Source: Acidobacteriota bacterium
GTDB lineage: Bacteria > Acidobacteriota > Terriglobia > Acidiferrales > UBA7541
Direction: 5' to 3'
Length of the DNA stretch: 64,000 bases
Assembly (NCBI GenBank): GCA_003223215.1
Contig: QHYH01000105.1
Span: 1-64,000, forward strand
Made by a program: the position numbers and the translations under genes. This document shows positions 607 through 57,114 of the stretch, piece after piece. The number at the start of each line of letters is the position of its first letter. Position 1 is the stretch's first letter. The notes below the pieces were generated by a model. It saw only the letters and a list, made by a program, of their open reading frames with translations, did no database searches and was not told where the DNA came from.

Positions 607-3040
607 TCAACCCTTGTGACAGTTCACGCAGATCGTGGCGTTATACGTGTACCCGCTCACACCCCCGTGCTGACTGTTCGTATTCGTCTGGTTCGTGTGT
701 GGCGAATTCCCTGTATGGCAAGCGCTGATGCAGGAGAAGATCGCATAATTGGTCGAATTAATATGGCAATCGGAACAGCTCGAACCGTTGTGCGGAATCC
801 TGAAATAAGTATGGTTAAAGACCGCACCAAGCCAAGCGGTGGTCACCCAGGTCGTGTGGCAGGAAACGCAGGTGGTCGGATAATTGGCCGTGACGTGATT
901 CGGGACGTTGGTGCCATAAGTCTGAGCGTTTATGAAATAGGTCTGATGGCAGCCGTAGCAATCTGTGGTTGGGTAGCCGGTCGTATAGTTGGCGCCGATA
1001 TGGCAGTCCGTGCAGGCGTTGACCATCGACCCAACCGCGCCCGTAACCGTGGTGCGGGGCGGGAGCATATGGGGTCCCTGCAAGGGAAACCCAGTCGCGG
1101 TGTGATCAAATTTTCCATCCGACCCAGACAACCGTGTCATGGCAAGTCGAACAGAGTGAGGTAGGGAAGCCCGCCGTGATGTGGTTTGGCACATTCCCGC
1201 CGAAGGTGGGCGTACTGTTCCAGGCCGCCTGGTGGCAACCGTAGCAATCCGTGTTCGCGGACGTGAGATTATAGTTGTTGTTGACGTGGCAGTCCGTGCA
1301 GGCGTTCGCTTTGCCTGCCGGCGCCATCTGGTGCGAACCCGTCAGCGGCCAGCCGGTCGTGCTGTGATCGAAGATGGCAGTGGTCCACGTGATCGTGTTG
1401 TGGCACGTCGAGCAGTTGGCTGCCGCAAACGCTGTTCCGCCAGTCGCGTGCGTCGGGTTATTGGTCTGCTGCCAGGTCGTCAGGTGGCATCCGGAATTCC
1501 CGCAGTCGGTCGGCTGGATCGCGAGGGTCGAGTAATTCCCCAGATGGCACTGATCGCAGCCCGTGACCTTTCCCGCCGGCGCGATCTGGTGCGCATTCGT
1601 CAGCGGAAAGCCCGTGTTGGCGTGATTAAAAGTCGAATCGGTCCACACATTCGTGTCATGGCACTGGCTGCACAAGGAGGTCGGGAATCCCGCGGTAATG
1701 TGGTTCGGCACACTTCCGCCAAAGGTGGGCGTACTGTTCCAGGCCGCCTGGTGGCAACCGTAGCAATCCGTGTTCGCGGACGTGAAATTATAGTTGTTGT
1801 TGACGTGGCAGTCCGTGCAGGCGTTCGCTTTGCCTGCCGGCGCCATCTGGTGCGAACCCGTCAGCGGCCAGCCGCTCGTGCTGTGATCGAAGATGGCAGT
1901 GGTCCACGTGGTCGTGTTGTGGCACGTCGAGCAGTTGGCTGCCGCAAACGCTGTTCCGCCAGTCGAGTGCGTCGGGTTATTGGTCTGCTGCCAGGTCGTC
2001 AGGTGGCATCCGGAATTCCCGCAGTCGGTCGGCTGGATCGTCAGATTGTAATTGTTGTTGACGTGACAGTCCGTGCAGGCACTCACCTTGCCCGCCGGGG
2101 CCATCTGGTGCGAATTCGTTAGCGGAAAGCCCGTCGTGCTGTGATCGAAGATGGCAGTGGTCCACGCGGTCGTGTTGTGGCACGTCGCACAGTTGGCAAT
2201 CGGAAAAACCGCGGGCGAGGTCGAATGCTTCGGGTTATTGGTCTGCTGCCAGGTGCTCAAGTGGCACAAGGAGTTGCCACAATCGGTCGGACTGCTCACT
2301 CGACCCTTGAAATTCGTGAACACTCCGCCGATGTGGCACGACGTGCACGCCACCGTGGCGTGCGCCCCGGCCAGGGCAAAATTTGCCGGCGGCCCGGCAT
2401 GATTAAAAGTCGCTCCGAGCCAACTGTCAAACGTATGACACATCTCGCAGTTTTGCGGAAACTTACTGGTGACGTGATTCGGATTGCTGGTCTTCTGAAA
2501 ATCTGTCTGGTGACAGGAAATACAAGCGGTCGAAAGCCCCTGGAATTGCCCCACCGCGGCACGCTTGTGACAATCTTCGCATTGCAAGGCCGCGTGGGCC
2601 CCGAGTAGCGGGAAGCGGTTCTGGTGATCCTTGACCTGCTGCACGGCGACATTCCAGCCCTGAACGGTGTGACACTGCGCACAGTTTGTGCCCATCCTTC
2701 TCTGGTGCACGTCGGCATGACAGTCCTGGCAATTCCTCCCGACATCCGTGAACACCGGCTTCACGTGGCACTGCGTGCATTCCACTTTTTCGTGCATACC
2801 GCGCAGCGGATATCTGGTCTTGTCGTGATCGAATTCCGGATTCGCCTTGATCGGGCGCCACGCGCTCACCTTGTGGCAATTGTCGCAAGGGATGGTGAGC
2901 GTCGGCCCATGAGGATTGCGCGTAGTCGCCCTGTTCTCTTGATGGACACGCTGGGCAGCCTTGGGGGTTTGCCTACCCGGTGCCGGCGCGCTCCACACCG
3001 CGGGGAGGGCCAACAAGGCACACAAAACGACCTGGAGCAA
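607..3040 (-). CDS. Large multiheme c-type cytochrome (28 heme motifs), one frameshift
   Basis: This encodes a secreted electron-transfer protein of roughly 810 residues. I count 24 CXXCH motifs plus three CX4CH (CGNSLCH, CGNSGCH twice) and one CX3CH (CISACH). It is built from a repeated module: CSTCH, a TGFPL..SHQMAPAGK linker, CTDCH, then CYGCH or CGNSGCH. The N-terminus has a hydrophobic stretch (LCALLALPAVWSA) like a signal peptide, but the only in-frame start is TTG at 3040 and an in-frame stop lies close upstream, so the 5' end may also be damaged. Translation breaks at about 1106-1115: dropping one A from the AAAA run restores the module WKFDHTATGFPL and continues to a stop at 607. Covalent hemes imply Ccm maturation and a periplasmic or outer-surface location. 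The exact role is not inferable. Confidence 0.85.
1180..1521. repeat. Intragenic direct repeat, copy 1
   Basis: About 340 bp inside the multiheme cytochrome gene recurs almost base for base at 1699-2040, an offset of 519 bp (173 codons). It encodes heme modules CSTCH/CTDCH/CYGCH. Only a few substitutions separate the copies (for example GTGATC versus GTGGTC), indicating recent duplication or gene conversion. Confidence 0.85.
1699..2040. repeat. Intragenic direct repeat, copy 2
   Basis: This is the partner of 1180-1521 at an offset of 519 bp, within the same reading frame of the cytochrome gene. Further, more diverged copies of the shorter heme module flank both. Confidence 0.85.
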
Positions 3041-22639: not shown

Positions 22640-25315
22640 CTAGGCGAGTGACCGCGCAATCACCATGGTGATGTCATCCTGTTGTTCTCCGGCGCTGAAT
22701 TGGCGGACTGCCCCAACGACTGCTTGGAGCAGTGGACCCACCGGAAGATGACAATAACAGCGAAGGGTGTCGACTAAGCGGGACTCGCCGAACTCTTCGC
22801 CATCGGCGCTCCGGGCCTCCGTTATTCCGTCGGTGTACAGTACCAGCGTGTCTCCCGGCGCTAGCCTCACTTCCGCAACTTCACATTGCCAGTCGCTAAA
22901 CAGCCCCACGACCATGCTGGTGGCATCCAAGCGCTGCACTTCCCCTTTTCGCGAAGCCTGATCTTTCGCGCCTCCGCCGCCACACAGTAGTAGTGGCGGA
23001 AGATGTCCACAATTCGCGTAGCGGAGTCTGCGGCTGGTGTCATCGTAGTCCGCAAAAAAGAGAGTCGCGTAACCTGCGTCCCCAGTGTTTTTGCAGAACG
23101 AGTGGTTTACGGAGGAGAGGGCGCGCCCCAGGTCGTCGACCGCCATGGCGCACTGACTACGTAAGTTGGCTTGAAGATTGGCCATCAGCAGGGCGCCCGA
23201 CACTCCTTTGCCCGCGATATCAGCCAATACCAGTGCCAGGTGGCCTTCGCGGAGCTCCACAAAATCGTAGTAGTCCCCACCCACTGCCCGAGCTGGGATG
23301 CAGCCGCCGGTATACTCAAGCGTCTTCATCGCCGGTAACTTTTGCGGAAAGAGCCGCGCTTGCACCTCCCGGGCAATCTCCATTTCACGGGCCACGCGGC
23401 GATCCGCTTCCATCCGATCCGCCATCTTTTCGGCAAGGCGTATGTTCTCTAGAGTGATTCCCGCCTGGGCCGCCACGGAATCAAGCAAATGCTTGTCCTC
23501 GCCGGAGTAAGGTTCCTCCGAAAGCCGCTGGCCAAGCACCAGCAAGCCCATCAATCCGCTGTTGCGCCCAAGGATAGGCACCAGGCATTCCGGCGCAAGC
23601 GACCCCAGATCGCCGGCCGCCTCGTGACTTTGCGGGACGTCCCAGGCCTTTCCGCGCTGTGCGACCTCCCTGAGCAGCGGCAGCGTTGCTGGAATTGTGT
23701 CCGACTCCCGGGGAACGAAGACTGCGCCGAAGCGGAAAGGGAACTTTGGCCGAGGTAGCGCGGCCGGAATTGCTTCTAACTCCCGGGGCACTGGTTCGGA
23801 TTCCGCGGCAAGGTTTCCATCTTCGGCTTGCAGGTAACAAACAAACGATTTCGGATGCAGAGCACCCTTGATGTGTTTTTCGAGCAGCATCGCGAGCTCG
23901 CGGCGGTCGCTAACCGTACGTGTTTTCTCCGCCAGATCTTGCAGGATGACACGCGCGTCATACGCGCTACGGAAAAAGGCGCGATCGATGCGCGCTGTTC
24001 CTCGCTTAACCAGTGGCGCGGAAATCCACACCAATCCGACCCCAAATACAAGGCCGAGGCCAAGCACCGTATTCGAGAATGTCCCTACCAAGCCCGAAAC
24101 AGCGTAAGTGAAGAGTCTAATAGCGGCGAGCCAAAGGGTCAGGAGCAGAATCGTGAAGCCGCGCTGCACCAGCACGTACCTTGCGCTGCGTCGCAGCAGC
24201 ACGGGAATGTCCATGACCCGGTGTTTCACTACGGCATAAGCGAACGACAGGGGATACAAGGACAACACCAGAATCAGCGCTGTGTCGAACCAAAAAGAAG
24301 GACGATATCCTGCGAAGTCCATCGCTACGCGCTCGAGAACGATCGGCAAGACGCCGGCAATTGTTCCCCACAGAATCACTCGCGATTTGCGCCGCGCTTC
24401 CGAAGCGACTGCAGCTATGAACGAATTTTGTGCCAAGGAGAGGACGCCCAAAGCAAATAAGCCATACAGAACGGATGAGAGGATCAAGTCAGCGTTGCGT
24501 GTGCCCACCGCATCAACCGCCAATCGCGGGAGGCTTGGATGCCCGGCCCGCAACCCTGGAAGGGCAATAGATACTCCAAAGGCCAGAGCCAGCCATTTCA
24601 ACCATGGGAAACGCCGATCCAACGGAGACTGCGTAGGAAACACCGCGAAAAACAGATAGAAGAGCGGACCCAGCATCCCCAAAAAAATCGCACAGAATGC
24701 CAGCACGAATGCCACGAGGGCAGGAGAAACTCCCGAGGGAATCACAAGATCTGGAGCGGCGATGAAGGCACAGAACAACAATGCCAGGAGCCACGCCGTT
24801 GGCTCTTCCAACCTCAAGAACAGGACGGCGAATCCGACCAGAAGAAACGGAACCGGAAACAATCCGATGACTTGCAACGCGGAAGACCTGGCGAGGCCTT
24901 CGCTTGCTCTGTTTGGCCATCTCTTTGCCCGAAAGACTGCATGCAGAACTAGCGGATCGGGCTCACCTGGTCGTTCTATTGTTAAGGCCACAGCGTCGCC
25001 CGGATGGCCGCGGACGTAGGAGTCGTCGAATCCAATCTCGGTGCCCAAGGCACGCCCATTGACCGCAGTTATGCGGTCGCCAGCGCGCAGTCCAGCTTGC
25101 TTCGCTGGGCTTCCCTCTATCACATCGTCAACCAACAGCGAGTGCGTTCTCGCGTCATAGTTTGGGTTGTGGAGCTGATTGAAGCCGAGCTCTACAAGCG
25201 GACCCGGATAACGGACAGCGTACATCCAGAGAGACCCGTAAAGGATCGCGCCTAAGGCAAACACGCCAGCAAGCGTGGCGAGGAATGGTCGGGGCAGCGC
25301 TGACCAGCGACGCAT
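22640..25315 (-). CDS. PDZ - membrane - GAF - PP2C (SpoIIE/RsbU-type) phosphatase
   Basis: From ATG 25315 the product is about 891 residues. Order: membrane helix (PFLATLAGVFALGAILYGSL, about 9-28), PDZ-like domain with IEGSPAKQAGLRAGDRITAV (about 67-86), a block of about eight membrane helices (about 145-420), a GAF domain (about 490-650, GLMGLLVLGQRLSEE), a coiled linker (MEADRRVAREMEIAREVQAR), then a SpoIIE PP2C domain with metal-binding motifs VGGDYYDF, LVLADIAGKGVSGALLMA, LVLYTDGITEARS and the terminal QQDDITMVIA. Such proteins dephosphorylate anti-anti-sigma (STAS) partners in response to membrane or small-molecule cues. No STAS or anti-sigma kinase is adjacent. An upstream start at 25384 is possible. 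It is complete. Confidence 0.9.
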   Translation of the reverse strand: MRRWSALPRPFLATLAGVFALGAILYGSLWMYAVRYPGPLVELGFNQLHNPNYDARTHSLLVDDVIEGSPAKQAGLRAGDRITAVNGRALGTEIGFDDSYVRGHPGDAVALTIERPGEPDPLVLHAVFRAKRWPNRASEGLARSSALQVIGLFPVPFLLVGFAVLFLRLEEPTAWLLALLFCAFIAAPDLVIPSGVSPALVAFVLAFCAIFLGMLGPLFYLFFAVFPTQSPLDRRFPWLKWLALAFGVSIALPGLRAGHPSLPRLAVDAVGTRNADLILSSVLYGLFALGVLSLAQNSFIAAVASEARRKSRVILWGTIAGVLPIVLERVAMDFAGYRPSFWFDTALILVLSLYPLSFAYAVVKHRVMDIPVLLRRSARYVLVQRGFTILLLTLWLAAIRLFTYAVSGLVGTFSNTVLGLGLVFGVGLVWISAPLVKRGTARIDRAFFRSAYDARVILQDLAEKTRTVSDRRELAMLLEKHIKGALHPKSFVCYLQAEDGNLAAESEPVPRELEAIPAALPRPKFPFRFGAVFVPRESDTIPATLPLLREVAQRGKAWDVPQSHEAAGDLGSLAPECLVPILGRNSGLMGLLVLGQRLSEEPYSGEDKHLLDSVAAQAGITLENIRLAEKMADRMEADRRVAREMEIAREVQARLFPQKLPAMKTLEYTGGCIPARAVGGDYYDFVELREGHLALVLADIAGKGVSGALLMANLQANLRSQCAMAVDDLGRALSSVNHSFCKNTGDAGYATLFFADYDDTSRRLRYANCGHLPPLLLCGGGGAKDQASRKGEVQRLDATSMVVGLFSDWQCEVAEVRLAPGDTLVLYTDGITEARSADGEEFGESRLVDTLRCYCHLPVGPLLQAVVGAVRQFSAGEQQDDITMVIARSLA

Positions 25316-25437
25316 AAGCCAAATGGGCTCCACCAGTGAGGATTTGCTACATGGCAGGCTACGACGGCCACCAGCGCGAGTCAATCAAGTCGCCCAGTGT
25401 TCGCGAGTCGTTCAGACAGAGCGATTATGCCCGAGTG

Positions 25438-25542: not shown

Positions 25543-26604
25543 TCAGGATGTTTGTGCCAGCCGTGAGCGAAGAATCTCTATGGTTTGCTCCAACTTCTTC
25601 GGACCAATCGTTCGCATGGGGAAGTAAGTCTCTGCGTTCTTGCCCTGCTGAAGGAGAGCTTCGTCGAGCGCGGTGCGGCCCTCAGCATTGCGAATGCTCG
25701 CATCAGCGCCCGCGGTGAGCAGGACTTTCACAAACTCCGTTGGATCAAGAACGATGCGGCTTTTGAGGACGCGATGGAGCGGTGTGTCACCGTTCGCGTC
25801 GTGCCAGTCCGGGTTGGCCCTGTGCTGGAGCAGGATGTGGGCCATGGCCGCGCCTGCGACCATAGCCGCCGGTCGCCACGCGCGTTCGTCATAAGCTGGC
25901 CGGTCGGCGAGGGCGCCGTATTGAAACAGGATCAGCGCGGACTCGGTCTGCTGGCCATAGATGGACCAGCCGAGCGGCGACTCACCCGTAGAGAGGTCGT
26001 TGGCCTGACGCGAATCGTTCTGCAGAATTTCCCGCAGACGATCGTGCATTCCATAAGCGGCGGCAGCGCAGACGTCGGACCGGGCTCCGGCGTCGAGCAC
26101 GATCTGAACGAGGTGATCGCGTCCCAGCTCGAAACAATCGTGTAGCGGTAGACGGCCATCCGTATTACGGGCGTTTACGTCGGCTCCGCGCTCGATAAGA
26201 AGGCGCAGAACGTCGCTCTGGTTTTCAGCAACCGCCAGGTGAGTCAGGTGCATCGCGAAAGTGTCGCTGGGGCGTTCGCGCTGCTGAAGATCGGTGCTCG
26301 CGTTGGCCAGCTCGGGATAGCGGTCGAGAATCCGGCGAATTGTGGGCAAATCTCCCTGGCGCACCGCCTGGATGATCTGAGCGTCAAAGCTGTGCAACGC
26401 GTCGACGTAGGTTTTGAGCGCGCGCCAACTGGAGAATCCATATCTGCGTGCGACGTCAAGTTGAGCTTCAGCGAGACCGGCGGCCGTTTTCTTCTTGCGC
26501 AGGGTCCGGAGATGCGCCTTCGCTTCATTCCTGAGATGTTCGAGACTAGCGCGGGCGGGGAGATCGCGCCCCGGAGAGACTGGACGAGCAGGTGTGTCGC
26601 TCAT
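25543..26604 (-). CDS. Ankyrin-repeat protein with a shared N-terminal domain
   Basis: The 353-residue protein starts at ATG 26604, with AGGAAGG six bases upstream (an in-frame start at 26643 lacks this). The head, about 20-75, has the pattern SLEHLRNEAKAHLR .. ARRYGFSSWRALKTYVDAL, which recurs in the ankyrin protein at 55277-56887. Ankyrin repeats follow: THLAVAENQSDVLRLLIERG and ADVNARNTDGRLPLHDCFEL (about 115-155), and GDTPLHRVLKSR with VKVLLTAGADASIRNAEGRT (about 270-320). Ankyrin repeats mediate protein-protein contact. The cellular role is unknown. No signal peptide or membrane helix is seen. Confidence 0.82.
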   Translation of the reverse strand: MSDTPARPVSPGRDLPARASLEHLRNEAKAHLRTLRKKKTAAGLAEAQLDVARRYGFSSWRALKTYVDALHSFDAQIIQAVRQGDLPTIRRILDRYPELANASTDLQQRERPSDTFAMHLTHLAVAENQSDVLRLLIERGADVNARNTDGRLPLHDCFELGRDHLVQIVLDAGARSDVCAAAAYGMHDRLREILQNDSRQANDLSTGESPLGWSIYGQQTESALILFQYGALADRPAYDERAWRPAAMVAGAAMAHILLQHRANPDWHDANGDTPLHRVLKSRIVLDPTEFVKVLLTAGADASIRNAEGRTALDEALLQQGKNAETYFPMRTIGPKKLEQTIEILRSRLAQTS

Positions 26605-26786
26605 GGAACCTTCCTTCCCTGATTGCCCAGAGGTCCGCGTCATTTGGGCGGGAAGTCAGGTTGATGTTGACTGGACTGCAAGGTGGGCTGAGCCCTTTAC
26701 GCGGACCGTCGGCCTCCCGCAAGGCCGGGCGCATCATCATCCATTCAGGACGCATCTTTCGGCCACTCTGGACAACATGGCCACAC

Positions 26787-26875: not shown

Positions 26876-27075
26876 GGCCCCAATTATAAGCCCGATCAGT
26901 TTCCGAGCGCCCAACGACTCGCCCTGAGCCTCGTCTCTCGCTTCCTGCAACATCTTTCGGGATAGTTTCCAAGTTGCCATTTATTAGCGGCAAGTTGCTA
27001 CGGTACGCAAGCGGACCCCTGAGTGATCGCTGCCGCGCTTCCGGGCGAGTAATGCCGGAGGGTACAATCGCTTCC

Positions 27076-28134
27076 ATGCGCGCTCCTAGTGCATTGCTGG
27101 AAGCACTTGGTGGCGAGGAGGGTTGCAGGGGGTTGTGCGCAGCATTTTACGCGCACGCTGGCAAGGACCCGGTTCTTCGCCCGTTCTTCCCAGGCAAGAG
27201 CCTAAAGTGTGCTACCGAAGAATTCGCTGGTTTCCTCATTCAGTTCCTGGGCGGAAATGAAAAGCAAACTCAGCATCGATGGTGGCTGAGTTTGCGCGAA
27301 TCACATGGACGCTTCCAGATTGACCCGACTGCACGACGCGCCTGGTTGAGGCATATGGAGGCAACGCTCGATGCCGCCCCGCTGGATGATGCAACGAGAA
27401 ATGCGCTTCGTGCCTTTTTCTCGCGCAGTTCCGCCTATGTCATTGGAAGGGACACTGCCGGGTCGGATCATGAAGAGTTGGCCGCGCGTTGGAGCGAGCA
27501 GCGGGTTTTGGATAGCGTTATCGCAGCCATTGTGGAAGGCCGAGGCCATGAAACGCTCGCTTTCGCACCAGGCTTCGCCTCCCGCCCATCGGTGTTCGTG
27601 GGATTACTCGCACGGATGGTTCAATCCGGCCGTGCGAGGTTGATTCACTTCGTCATAGATGCCGCGGAGAGCGTTCCCTCACTCGCGACGCGGCGTTTTG
27701 CCGGGACCACTCTCTTGCATTTCGCGGCCGGCGCAGGTTGCTTGGAAGTGGTGGCATTACTACTGCGGCTTGGTGCGGACCCGAACGTCCAGGGTCGCGG
27801 CGACCATACGCCGCTCTATTGCGTCGCGAACGAATGCGCGTCGGAAACGGGCCCCGAGGTAGTCCGTGCGCTCGTACGAGCCGGCGCTGACGTCAACGCG
27901 TGTGGCGGCGTAACGCGGGCGACGGCGCTTCATATGGCGGCCCGGCGGGGACACGTGGAGATCGCGCGAGCGTTGCTCGATTCCGGTGCGGCAGTGAATG
28001 CGCGGGACCGCAAAGGTGACACGCCTCTACAACGCGCAATCAATTGCCGCATGAAGGGAGTCTCGCAGTTGCTACTAGAGCGTGGACCCGTTGGCACTGT
28101 CCGGCCGACGAGCCACTCCAGACCTCGCGGTTAG
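27076..28134 (+). CDS. Truncated globin fused to ankyrin repeats
   Basis: The 352-residue protein from ATG 27076 starts with a group II truncated hemoglobin domain (about 5-125). B10 Tyr is in LCAAFYAHAGKDPVLRPFF (Tyr25), the proximal F8 His in LRESHGRFQI (His77) and the G8 Trp in RRAWLRHM (Trp90). A short linker leads to four ankyrin repeats (about 205-345): GTTLLHFAAGAGCLEVVALL, ALVRAGADVNACGG, TALHMAARRGHVEIARALL and GDTPLQRAINCRMKGVSQLL. Heme-binding residues are intact, so the globin should bind heme and possibly O2 or NO. Ankyrins would couple this to a partner protein. Start choice: GGAGGG lies 13-18 bases upstream, which is loose. Gene context gives no partner. Confidence 0.85.
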   Translation: MRAPSALLEALGGEEGCRGLCAAFYAHAGKDPVLRPFFPGKSLKCATEEFAGFLIQFLGGNEKQTQHRWWLSLRESHGRFQIDPTARRAWLRHMEATLDAAPLDDATRNALRAFFSRSSAYVIGRDTAGSDHEELAARWSEQRVLDSVIAAIVEGRGHETLAFAPGFASRPSVFVGLLARMVQSGRARLIHFVIDAAESVPSLATRRFAGTTLLHFAAGAGCLEVVALLLRLGADPNVQGRGDHTPLYCVANECASETGPEVVRALVRAGADVNACGGVTRATALHMAARRGHVEIARALLDSGAAVNARDRKGDTPLQRAINCRMKGVSQLLLERGPVGTVRPTSHSRPRG

Positions 28135-28568: not shown

Positions 28569-29579
28569 CTATGGCTTGAAATGGAAGAGCAAGATGCCAT
28601 AGCCGACGCCTGCGGAGTCGCCGGTCTTGGCAACTTGGAATGCCATGAAGCGGCCATCCGTGGAGATCACCGGATTTGAAGCTTTGCCGCCTTCGTAGTC
28701 GTTGAAATACGTAAGCCGAGTGAAATCCTTGCCGGTTCCGTCGAGCTTCAGCTTCCAGATGTCGATATTTCCGGAGCCGCGGTCACCGCCAAGCTGCTCG
28801 CATTGACGGTCCGCTTCGACGGCAGCGTACGGGCCGTCTGGGAAGATACCCTCCACTTCATTATACGAGCCGGGCGCTTTCGAAAAATTCGTCACCACGC
28901 CGGTGCGCAAGTCGATGCCCATGACCGAGGCTTGCGCACGCGGCTCGTAACAGGTGAACGTCATTTTGTCATCCTGATCGTAGAAATCCTGTGCTTCGAG
29001 AGTGCAGCCACGGTCCTTGCTTTCAAAAACTATCTTTTTGTTGATCAGCGCGGGGACTCCATGGGACAGATCGAGTTCCGCGACCACCAAGCGCGAGGAT
29101 TCGGATGCCAAATCTGGGTTTTGCTGGGACGTCTCCGAGTAGGAAATTTTGAGAGACTTCTTCGAGATGGCGGCTCCTTCGCTCATTTTTTGCCCAAGCT
29201 TAACGGGTCGCGATCCGCGCTCTTTGCTGAGAAACCACAGTTCATTGTCGCGTGTGCGGCTTACGCGGACGTCTTCGAAATGATCGGGCCCAATCAAGAT
29301 ATAGTCGCCGGTCACCAAGTGCATCACCCGCAAGAAGACGGCGGAAGGAACATTGCAGGTAAGGCAGCGAATTTCGCGGGTCTTTAGATCGATTATCATG
29401 GCATCGCCGAAGCTTTTCGCCATGAACGCGACGCGCAGATTATCGGGTGAAATGTCAGCACGTTCCCCGAAATGAGTCAGGATTTCGAAGTTGGGAGGCA
29501 GATGATCGAGTGGATTTCCCTGCTTCCGTTCGGCAGGCAGGGCTAAGAGCAGTGCAGTGATAAGGCTCAGTACGCGCAT
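28569..29579 (-). CDS. Secreted TolB-like (WD40/PD40) beta-propeller protein
   Basis: The 336-residue protein has a short signal peptide (MRVLSLITALLLALPAE) and repeated beta-propeller blades. Typical PD40 phrases are ISPDNLRVAFMAKSFGDAMI (about 43-62), SKKSLKISYSETS (about 139-151) and NPVISTDGRFMAFQVAKTGD (about 301-320). Propellers of this type are periplasmic or surface-associated and often bind proteins or glycans; no catalytic motif is visible. It runs to its own stop and appears complete. The downstream chimeric SRPBCC/PadR ORF begins about 57 bases after its stop on the same strand. Confidence 0.75.
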   Translation of the reverse strand: MRVLSLITALLLALPAERKQGNPLDHLPPNFEILTHFGERADISPDNLRVAFMAKSFGDAMIIDLKTREIRCLTCNVPSAVFLRVMHLVTGDYILIGPDHFEDVRVSRTRDNELWFLSKERGSRPVKLGQKMSEGAAISKKSLKISYSETSQQNPDLASESSRLVVAELDLSHGVPALINKKIVFESKDRGCTLEAQDFYDQDDKMTFTCYEPRAQASVMGIDLRTGVVTNFSKAPGSYNEVEGIFPDGPYAAVEADRQCEQLGGDRGSGNIDIWKLKLDGTGKDFTRLTYFNDYEGGKASNPVISTDGRFMAFQVAKTGDSAGVGYGILLFHFKP

Positions 29580-55276: not shown

Positions 55277-56887
55277 TCAGCGCGATGCCTGCTCCCGCCG
55301 TTGTTGCGCCTCGCCGAGCCACTGCGCCATCTTCTCGTCCTTCGCAGCGTGATATGCCCAACCCTGGGCGGTACCGCCCCAGCGATAATCGACGATCGTC
55401 ATGTCGATGCCGCGATCGATGAGGAATTGCATCGCTTCGTAATTTTTGTGGAAATACACCAGCTCATGCAGAATGCTGGCGGGCTCATGGGAGCTCCAGT
55501 TCGTGTTGATATCAGCCCCGTGACCGAGAAGAAAGTCGGCGACCTCGAAGTGGTTATTGAGGACCGCCCAGGCGAACGCGGTGTCGAGAACCTGCTGCAC
55601 AGTAGGCTCGCCCCATTGCAGGTCCCTCCGGGCGAAGGCACTGTTAGCGGGAAAATGATTCGCGGGGTCGCCCAGTGCGGGCTTGCCCGCCGCGTCGAAC
55701 CAGCTTTTCACGCGTGTGAGGTCCCCATTCCCGGCTGCATGTGGCAGATCGTCGGGGAGGCGCCAGATGCGCAGCAGCATCGGAAGCAGATGGGACTTCG
55801 CATACACGAACGCGAATTCAATGGCCTGCGATCGCGGCGGCACAGGACTGCGCAGCAGAGCGGGATCGAGATCGAGAAGAGCGGTAATGAAAGCGGCGCG
55901 ATCGCGCAACACTGCCCGTTCGATCATTCCGACCTGAAATTTCACGTATGCGTCTCCCAACATCCATGCTTCGCGCCGCAATCCGCCGACAAAGGATGCC
56001 AGGTCGACGTCGTTCACCGCGCGCACGACCTGTCGCATGACAAAAGCCTGCCAGGGCCCGGCCGGGTCGGCGTTGGTGAAGGCGAGCGTCTCACTTTCCG
56101 CCATGATGCATTGGACAAATGCGGAACGTCCCGGCCCGCCATCGATCTGCCTTCCCAGCTCGGCATCGAGCGTGATTGACCGATCCAGCAGCAGCGCCGC
56201 TGCGGTCGCGTGCTGGAGATGGCAGGCACACATGAACGCCCGGTTCACCACTGCAAGATCGTCGCCATTCGCATCAAGACAGGCGCGAACGCCATTGACG
56301 TCGCCAAGCGCGGCAAAGAACCGGAGCGATTGGGGAAGAAGGCCTCTGCGGTGGAAGAGATCGAGCAGTCCCTTTGTGCGGGAAGCGATGAGGCCATCGC
56401 ATACCGACGGCGCGACGACTGCGCCTGCATCGATCAGGAGCTCTGCACATGCCGCGCGCGTGAATATCTGCTCCCGGGACGGGTCGAAGCTGTCGCCGTA
56501 GGACTTGGTAGCCATCCCGAGCAGCCCGCCCTCGTTTTCATCCGCCCTCCACGACAATAACGCCGGGTATTCAGCCAAAAGCTGCCGTAGACCTTCGATG
56601 TCATTGTTATGAATGCAGCGGCGGGCTTCGGATAAGGCCCACTCGAGTCCCCTGCCGAGGCGTTGCTTTACTTCTTTAACCAGGTCCTGCCAGCCTGGAA
56701 ACCCATATTCGCGCGCCAGCACCAGCTGGGCATCACGCTGCGACAACGGCAGTTTGGCTTTGGGCAGATGGGCACGTGCCTGGTCGATGGCGCCTGGATC
56801 GCCGGCAGCGATGCCACGGGCCAGTTTCTTGGCTTGTTTGCGCAGGGATTCCAGCGAGGGACGAGCAGGAAGTTTCGATGTGGTCAT
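55277..56887 (-). CDS. Large ankyrin-like repeat protein
   Basis: The 536-residue protein starts at ATG 56887 (AAGGAGG five bases upstream; the in-frame ATG at 56944 lacks this). It begins with the SLESLRKQAKKLARG .. LAREYGFPGWQDLVKEVKQR domain shared with the protein at 25543-26604. Degenerate ankyrin-type helix pairs follow: IHNNDIEGLRQLLAEYPALL (about 92-111), FFAALGDVNGVRACLDANGD (about 188-207), AWAVLNNHFEVADFLLGHGA with DINTN (about 445-470) and YEAMQFLIDRGIDMTIVDYR near the end. No catalytic or membrane segment is seen. Likely a cytosolic scaffold. Confidence 0.8.
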   Translation of the reverse strand: MTTSKLPARPSLESLRKQAKKLARGIAAGDPGAIDQARAHLPKAKLPLSQRDAQLVLAREYGFPGWQDLVKEVKQRLGRGLEWALSEARRCIHNNDIEGLRQLLAEYPALLSWRADENEGGLLGMATKSYGDSFDPSREQIFTRAACAELLIDAGAVVAPSVCDGLIASRTKGLLDLFHRRGLLPQSLRFFAALGDVNGVRACLDANGDDLAVVNRAFMCACHLQHATAAALLLDRSITLDAELGRQIDGGPGRSAFVQCIMAESETLAFTNADPAGPWQAFVMRQVVRAVNDVDLASFVGGLRREAWMLGDAYVKFQVGMIERAVLRDRAAFITALLDLDPALLRSPVPPRSQAIEFAFVYAKSHLLPMLLRIWRLPDDLPHAAGNGDLTRVKSWFDAAGKPALGDPANHFPANSAFARRDLQWGEPTVQQVLDTAFAWAVLNNHFEVADFLLGHGADINTNWSSHEPASILHELVYFHKNYEAMQFLIDRGIDMTIVDYRWGGTAQGWAYHAAKDEKMAQWLGEAQQRREQASR

Positions 56888-57114
56888 TACGCCTCCTTTC
56901 AAGAGCGCCTGTGACCCGCTGATACAGGCTGAAAGAAGGTGCAAAGCACGCTGTCTGGATCAAAGCAGGTGGGATTTGTTCCCTTGCCGCGGGTCGGTGG
57001 TGCCCTGTCGCACGCTGCCGCTAGTATCCGCAACTTGCCGCGGCACTGTCAAACCGCGTTTTCACGGCCCATTTCTCGCTGTCTACTCACGCACCTTGGA
57101 GATTGCGGCCGGAT

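Follow-up and report, generated by a model that had tools for sequence, protein, structure and literature searches.

How a heme globin might be put to work when the rest of its polypeptide carries protein-binding repeats is the question raised by the gene at 27076-28134 (+) in an Acidobacteriota bacterium (GCA_003223215.1, contig QHYH01000105.1). The window, the whole stretch of DNA analyzed here, comprises positions 1 to 64,000 (64,000 nt) of the forward strand of this contig. A sequence-only reading, made without database searches, had proposed that the gene encodes a group II truncated globin fused to four ankyrin repeats. The gene is one unbroken ORF of 352 aa from the ATG at 27076, in a frame that is open upstream to a TTG at 26974. 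There is one additional in-frame ATG, 8 codons upstream, and the position of ATG 27076 is that of the sole start codon present within 25 residues in the orthologs L014, L049 (the same protein as L015) and L050 (the same protein as L016). In a Pfam scan of the protein, residues 7-115 matched Bac_globin (PF01152) with 51.8 bits (E 1.1e-13), well over the cut-off of 21, followed by Ank (PF00023, E 5.7e-26) and Ank_2 (E 3.9e-22), with matches also to Ank_3, Ank_4 and Ank_5, and the proposal of both parts in one chain is thereby confirmed. The features are:

27076..28134 (+), complete globin-linker-ankyrin gene, 352 aa (ORF, Pfam, ortholog start, purifying selection)
27094..27420 (+), group II-type truncated globin domain, residues 7-115 (PF01152, phmmer, model of residues 1-127)
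27436..27711 (+), family-specific helical linker, residues 121-212 (alignment, linker profile search, model)
27712..28086 (+), ankyrin stack of about four repeats, residues 213-337 (PF00023 E 5.7e-26; model on 1n0r, Z 19.3)

No non-ankyrin second domain scored above cut-off in this protein with Pfam or NCBIfam, and no reductase, DNA-binding or catalytic domain was found by Pfam in it or in the seven relatives scanned. With no other recognized domain in the chain, docking is the only visible output. A full-chain model (pLDDT 75.8, pTM 0.58, based on 7 sequences) is of low confidence across residues 62-81 and 124-141, so that the packing and interface of the globin and ankyrin halves cannot be read from it.

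In the whole-genome search, the globin matched PF01152 with an E of 8.0e-14, and a phmmer search of solved structures returned 16 matches, all truncated globins (titles checked for most), with 5d1v the closest (E 2.5e-15) and 2bmm, 2bkm and 1ngk among the others. As Foldseek on the full model gave ankyrin and DARPin entries, the globin was modeled alone (residues 1-127, pLDDT 79). The top rows for this model are truncated 2/2 globins (Z 13-15, maximum 15.1), with groups I and II tied, and 3/3 globins score lower (Z 11-12.9). On the basis of its PF01152 score, HisF8 and TrpG8, the domain is classified as a group II-type truncated globin. Helix positions were assigned by alignment to M. tuberculosis HbO, and the pocket residues are then TyrB10 (Y25), PheCD1 (F38), AlaE7 (A46), PheE11 (F50), HisF8 (H77) and TrpG8 (W90). 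Tyr25, His77 and Trp90 are located where the sequence-only reading had placed them, and all three are invariant in the 21 aligned members of what is designated subfamily 1, as are A46, F53, R68, L73, R79, F80, M94 and F115. The F-loop preceding F8 in group II globins is usually RGHPRLRxRH; in the window protein and most of subfamily 1 it is, instead, RWWLSLRESH. Arg68, Leu73 and His77 of the loop are retained in 21/21, and the sequence reads as a variant motif rather than as the breach of a strict defining feature.

Trp at G8 is a hallmark of group II truncated hemoglobins, and is present both as W90 throughout subfamily 1 (21/21) and in 7/7 members of the second subfamily described below. A survey (PMC4720485) gives Trp at G8 in 70% of truncated globins, and ties pockets of this TyrB10/TrpG8/small-E7 sort to slow O2 release and to redox or peroxidase chemistry. 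We infer that Ala at E7 counts as open, and such a pocket would suit an enzyme and a sensor alike. Cys45 (27208-27210), which adjoins E7, is kept in 20 of the 21 subfamily 1 members, and thiol chemistry near the heme is a possibility that this residue suggests. In the closely related pair L065 and L066, a segment of the G-H region of the globin is missing, yet HisF8 and TrpG8 are retained.

The linker is modeled as helices at residues 132-153, 157-167, 171-184 and 187-199, which are possibly degenerate ankyrin-like helix pairs; model residues 134-336, linker included, align with ankyrin G (Z 18.3, rmsd 4.6, 191 residues aligned). A count of four ankyrin repeats is a fair one: PF00023 scores three stretches, but model residues 209-339 superimpose on the four-repeat designed protein 1n0r (Z 19.3, rmsd 2.0, 122 aligned). 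When the linker was used as a query at E 0.01, it matched once in each of the 21 fusion genomes, every time within the fusion itself, with the best 150 of 166-178 candidates scored in three of these genomes. Bacterial ankyrin-repeat proteins share the consensus repeats and DARPin-like stack with the fusion. On the subfamily 1 profile, however, the ankyrin parts of intact fusions score 106-209 bits and the other ankyrin proteins compared ≤81; the ankyrin parts of subfamily 2, which are absent from that profile, score 106-135 bits, with two broken or gapped copies at 58 and 93. Identity as a Dot/Icm T4SS ankyrin effector was considered and rejected, the best NCBIfam score being 48.1 bits, with its best stretch in the ankyrin region, against an equivalog cut-off of 600.

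To establish how widespread the architecture is, three bacterial phyla were sampled. Of 399 genomes from the class to which the source genome belongs, 21, the source genome among them, proved to carry the fusion when searched with the globin profile. These 21 matches score at least 125 bits in frames of at least 329 aa, the next-best being 84.6 bits in a 153-aa frame, and all align end to end through globin, linker and ankyrins. A thinner sample across the phylum had the fusion in 1/396 genomes, the source genome, and within the genus of that genome it is present in two of 36, a patchy presence that agrees with an accessory gene. In family f7 of the class, which contains a Bryobacterales MAG, the linker is present in 39 of 237 genomes, 17 of them already among the class 21. 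Inspection of the remaining 22 loci showed a single open frame running through globin, linker and ankyrins at 19 of them; the ankyrin part shifts into another frame in L128, a run of N lies inside the fusion gene of L136, and in L129 the contig ends before the globin, which is therefore not visible, as it is in the other 38 of the 39. Globin and ankyrin parts thus occur together in 42 Acidobacteriota genomes (38 of f7 plus G000, G017, G043 and G661), all such counts being lower bounds taken from the best-scoring candidates per genome. Globin matches within further long frames (G541, G626 and two actinobacterial loci) were rejected, the globin merely lying at the end of a longer frame, as were L024, L029 and L035 for the same reason, judged from sequence.

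The same fusion was recovered also in a second phylum, that of L017, an Armatimonadetes MAG, searched in 201 genomes with the globin profile and in 281 with a profile of subfamily 2. Such recurrence across many genomes identifies the fusion as no accident of chance or assembly. Of the 281 genomes, 21 have a fusion of one or the other subfamily. Subfamily 1 is present in ten (G1020, G948, G1052, G1332, G1284, G1296, G1356, G1330, G1326 and G1298; much diverged in G1052), a count that rests on the profile built from subfamily 2. Subfamily 2 is present in eleven, full-length in ten and cut within the globin by a contig end in one (G1074); G1048 has an ankyrin end alone at a contig edge, and G1287 and G1001, initially candidates, hold ordinary ankyrin proteins. 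In subfamily 2, the linker is shorter than and different from that of subfamily 1 and the F-loop is RGKxSLxCRHAH, with a Cys placed two positions ahead of the proximal HisF8. HisF8 and TrpG8 are intact, and His replaces Tyr at B10 in 10/10 full-length members (L149-L155, L183, L185, L186). No paper on HisB10 in truncated hemoglobins was found in the literature searched. There was no full-length subfamily 2 match in the 199 Acidobacteriota genomes searched. In the third phylum, that of the actinobacterium L018, separate globin and ankyrin matches do occur; no match at E 1e-12 spanned both in 198 genomes, from each of which the best ten candidates were taken, a search in which a much diverged fusion could appear as a part match.

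A tree built from 73 globin domains has a branch that separates the 31 fusion globins from the 42 free globins (support 100/94), with subfamily 1 and subfamily 2 each a clade. Eight long or duplicate free globins (L012, L013, L033, L044-L048) were left out of this tree; with all eight included, the 21 subfamily 1 fusions still group on one side of a branch (SH-aLRT 91). In a 47-domain tree, with six free globin rows only, subfamily 1 members from one phylum branch among those from the other; well supported branches require the Armatimonadota label to change at least twice, and this interleaving suggests horizontal transfer. A single fusion event followed by transfer between phyla would fit these comparisons best; deep duplication with losses could also stand in place of the transfer. 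For a common origin of the ankyrin parts of the two subfamilies, an ankyrin tree gives a support of 67 with 3 outsider rows, too few to decide the point, and the gap in ankyrin score between the fusions and other ankyrin proteins is the better hint. Comparison of the window gene with three orthologs gave NG86 dN/dS values of 0.14-0.34 for the globin, 0.22-0.29 for the linker and 0.12-0.41 for the ankyrins, low values consistent with purifying selection that has kept both halves and their join. Plasmid or phage carriage was also considered: matches occur in 33 plasmid and 10 phage records, none of which covers 80% of the query, and among the 30 plasmid and phage matches listed the match begins at residue 147 or later, in the linker and ankyrins. 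Three loci on viral contigs matched residues 184-337 only.

Solved group II (O) truncated hemoglobins (HbO/GlbO; 1ngk, 2bmm, 1ux8, 5d1v) share PF01152, HisF8, TrpG8 and TyrB10 with the window globin but are single-domain chains of 123-132 aa, to which the fusion adds the linker and ankyrins; they differ too from the RWWLSLRESH loop of most of subfamily 1 and the His at B10 of subfamily 2. Fusions of a truncated globin to an antibiotic monooxygenase are known, although a literature search found no paper on them. Another chimera in which a truncated globin is fused to a further domain is the nitrate reductase-2/2HbN of raphidophytes (PMC3820574). In both cases the partner domain is a redox enzyme, in contrast to the ankyrin repeats of the present fusion. 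Globin-coupled sensors and flavohemoglobins are described as chimeric globins (PMC1457004), and globin-coupled sensors likewise have an N-terminal heme globin, a C-terminal second domain and a presumed gas response (PMC1457004, PMC10882959). They join a 3/3 globin to a cyclase, phosphodiesterase or chemotaxis domain, whereas the fusion joins a truncated globin to a binding repeat, and its identity as a globin-coupled sensor was rejected because the globin matches PF01152 and Pfam and NCBIfam place no domain other than ankyrin above cut-off. A search of the literature, outside subscription papers and database architecture pages, found no paper on a truncated globin-ankyrin fusion. Chimeric globins being a known kind, the ankyrin-bearing one looks like a variant; the evidence is good that the family exists but weak as to its mechanism.

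The fusion gene of the window stands alone. An ankyrin gene upstream (25543-26643, -) diverges from it and the gene downstream (28569-29579) faces it; a sigma-70 scan detected no promoter-like site, and 3 terminator-like sites were counted, versus 1.9 expected. As the sequence-only reading had noted, two further ankyrin proteins are encoded in the window, by 25543-26643 (-) and, with a weak match (Ank_2 E 6.7e-8), by 55277-56944 (-). Its suggestion that these be considered first as docking partners found no support: BLASTP at 1e-6 detected no homolog of the 25543 protein at any of the 20 further fusion loci examined, and the gene at 55277 is 27 kb away, with a weak ankyrin stretch only. By eye, the N-terminal parts of the two proteins are alike (LEHLRNEAK...YGFSSWRALK and LESLRKQAK...YGFPGWQDLV), and these N-terminal parts match no Pfam family at E 0.001. 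Two genes upstream of the fusion, 22640-25384 (-) encodes a protein that combines a PDZ domain with a SpoIIE-type phosphatase (PF07228, E 3.3e-47).

Neighbors were compared at 63 fusion loci (31, then 32 more), with less than 2 kb of flank before the gene in 8 and after it in 10; greedy gene calling lost the fusion gene to antisense frames in 4/20 loci. In the 31-locus set, a PSCyt2/PSD1 (DUF1549/DUF1553) family was present at 7 loci and a protein-kinase-like family at 6. Across all 63, no family occurs within 3 kb at more than 7 loci, and the few that recur are common ones: kinase-like (7), PSCyt2/PSD1 (6), carboxypeptidase/TonB-type receptor (6), DUF1501 (5), ABC-permease type (5) and pilin-like (4), of which the kinase, receptor, permease and pilin families were named by eye. 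Within 3 kb of the window fusion gene there is no gene from any family present at three or more of the 63 loci. A PSCyt2/PSD1 gene lies on the same strand and within 2 kb of the fusion at six loci (L084, L089, L092, L093, L094, L164), adjoined in five by DUF1501, and four of the six make up two related pairs (G578/G637, G659/G635). In a control of 20 arbitrary stretches from seven of the genomes concerned, 33 of 532 positions (6.2%) are equally near such a gene, so that 6/63 is without clear enrichment and the same-strand order is a weak lead. With no widely conserved neighbor, the partner, if there is one, is probably encoded elsewhere in the genome.

The reading that we tentatively favor is that of a heme-based adaptor, in which the ligand or redox state of the globin alters how the ankyrins engage a partner. 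The protein would be cytosolic, with heme bound by the N-terminal group II-type globin and the conserved helical linker joining it to the ankyrin stack; the stack would dock a putative partner encoded elsewhere in the genome, and a change in the globin (O2, NO or Fe oxidation) would change that engagement. The presence of both parts in one chain, the intact pocket, the single clade, the occurrence in two phyla and selection on all parts support an adaptor as read from the sequences. An O2/NO-responsive adaptor was what the sequence-only reading had envisaged; the conserved single-chain design makes the adaptor reasonable, but the response to O2 or NO stays conjectural.

A serious competitor, in our estimate also short of probable, is that of a docked heme enzyme, in which NO, peroxide or peroxynitrite would be consumed by the globin, and the ankyrins would carry the globin to an electron donor or to a protein that it protects, with no signal passing between the parts. 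The group O-like TyrB10/TrpG8/small-E7 pocket suits this, as peroxidase and NO chemistry have been proposed for group O globins (PMC4720485), and in a chain that has no reductase domain a docked donor would be useful. The raphidophyte nitrate reductase fusion (PMC3820574) provides a precedent, and among the PSCyt/PSD1 genes near fusions that were scanned, two have a cytochrome-type PSCyt1 domain; the proximity of these genes is, however, near the background of the control. The replacement of TyrB10 by His in all full-length members of subfamily 2 would, furthermore, change the chemistry of such an enzyme, yet the ankyrin part is kept. We consider that HisB10 with a retained docking part would suit a retuned adaptor rather more than a fixed enzyme.

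That the globin has degenerated into a structural cap, without heme, on an ankyrin protein is improbable. The replacement of the usual GHPR stretch of the F-loop by WWLS in most of subfamily 1 and the missing G-H part of L065 and L066 could be taken as decay, but HisF8 and TrpG8 are invariant in 21/21 and present also in subfamily 2, and the dN/dS range of the globin part is that of a domain under constraint. With a source assembly in 279 contigs, one might suspect an artefact of assembly or prediction, or a pair of proteins translated separately. The same one-frame fusion, with its conserved linker, recurs in tens of genomes that include 2- and 3-contig assemblies (G707, G571) and, in the second phylum, contigs of 7.6 Mb (G948) and 5.2 Mb (G1009); this recurrence refutes an artefact and makes separate translation very improbable.

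To our knowledge, the heme-globin sensors of bacteria all act through an enzyme, a chemotaxis domain or DNA binding, and a conserved globin with a protein-docking repeat as its sole output would convert gas or redox state into protein interaction in a different way. A broader version of the adaptor reading, which we regard as possible but rather unlikely, is that of a horizontally mobile, heme-gated adaptor family, fused once, in which the docking half was kept and the heme pocket retuned (TyrB10 versus HisB10 with a Cys before HisF8). If so, different ligands or coordination states would feed the same kind of docking module, in a bacterial gas or redox signaling route without a kinase, cyclase or DNA-binding output. 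The family is located in abundant, poorly understood soil phyla, and its two subfamilies, which differ at B10 and share one docking module, allow ligand and partner to be compared. Elsewhere in the window, 1106-3040 (-) is an open frame with many CxxCH motifs, judged by eye from its translation to encode, probably, a multiheme cytochrome c. A second globin match (E 1e-10) is present in 9 of the 21 fusion genomes of the class, and additional globins of this kind do not discriminate between the readings; in the source genome, the second PF01152 globin is a 110-aa frame at G000:C211:17974-18246 (L176, 47 bits).
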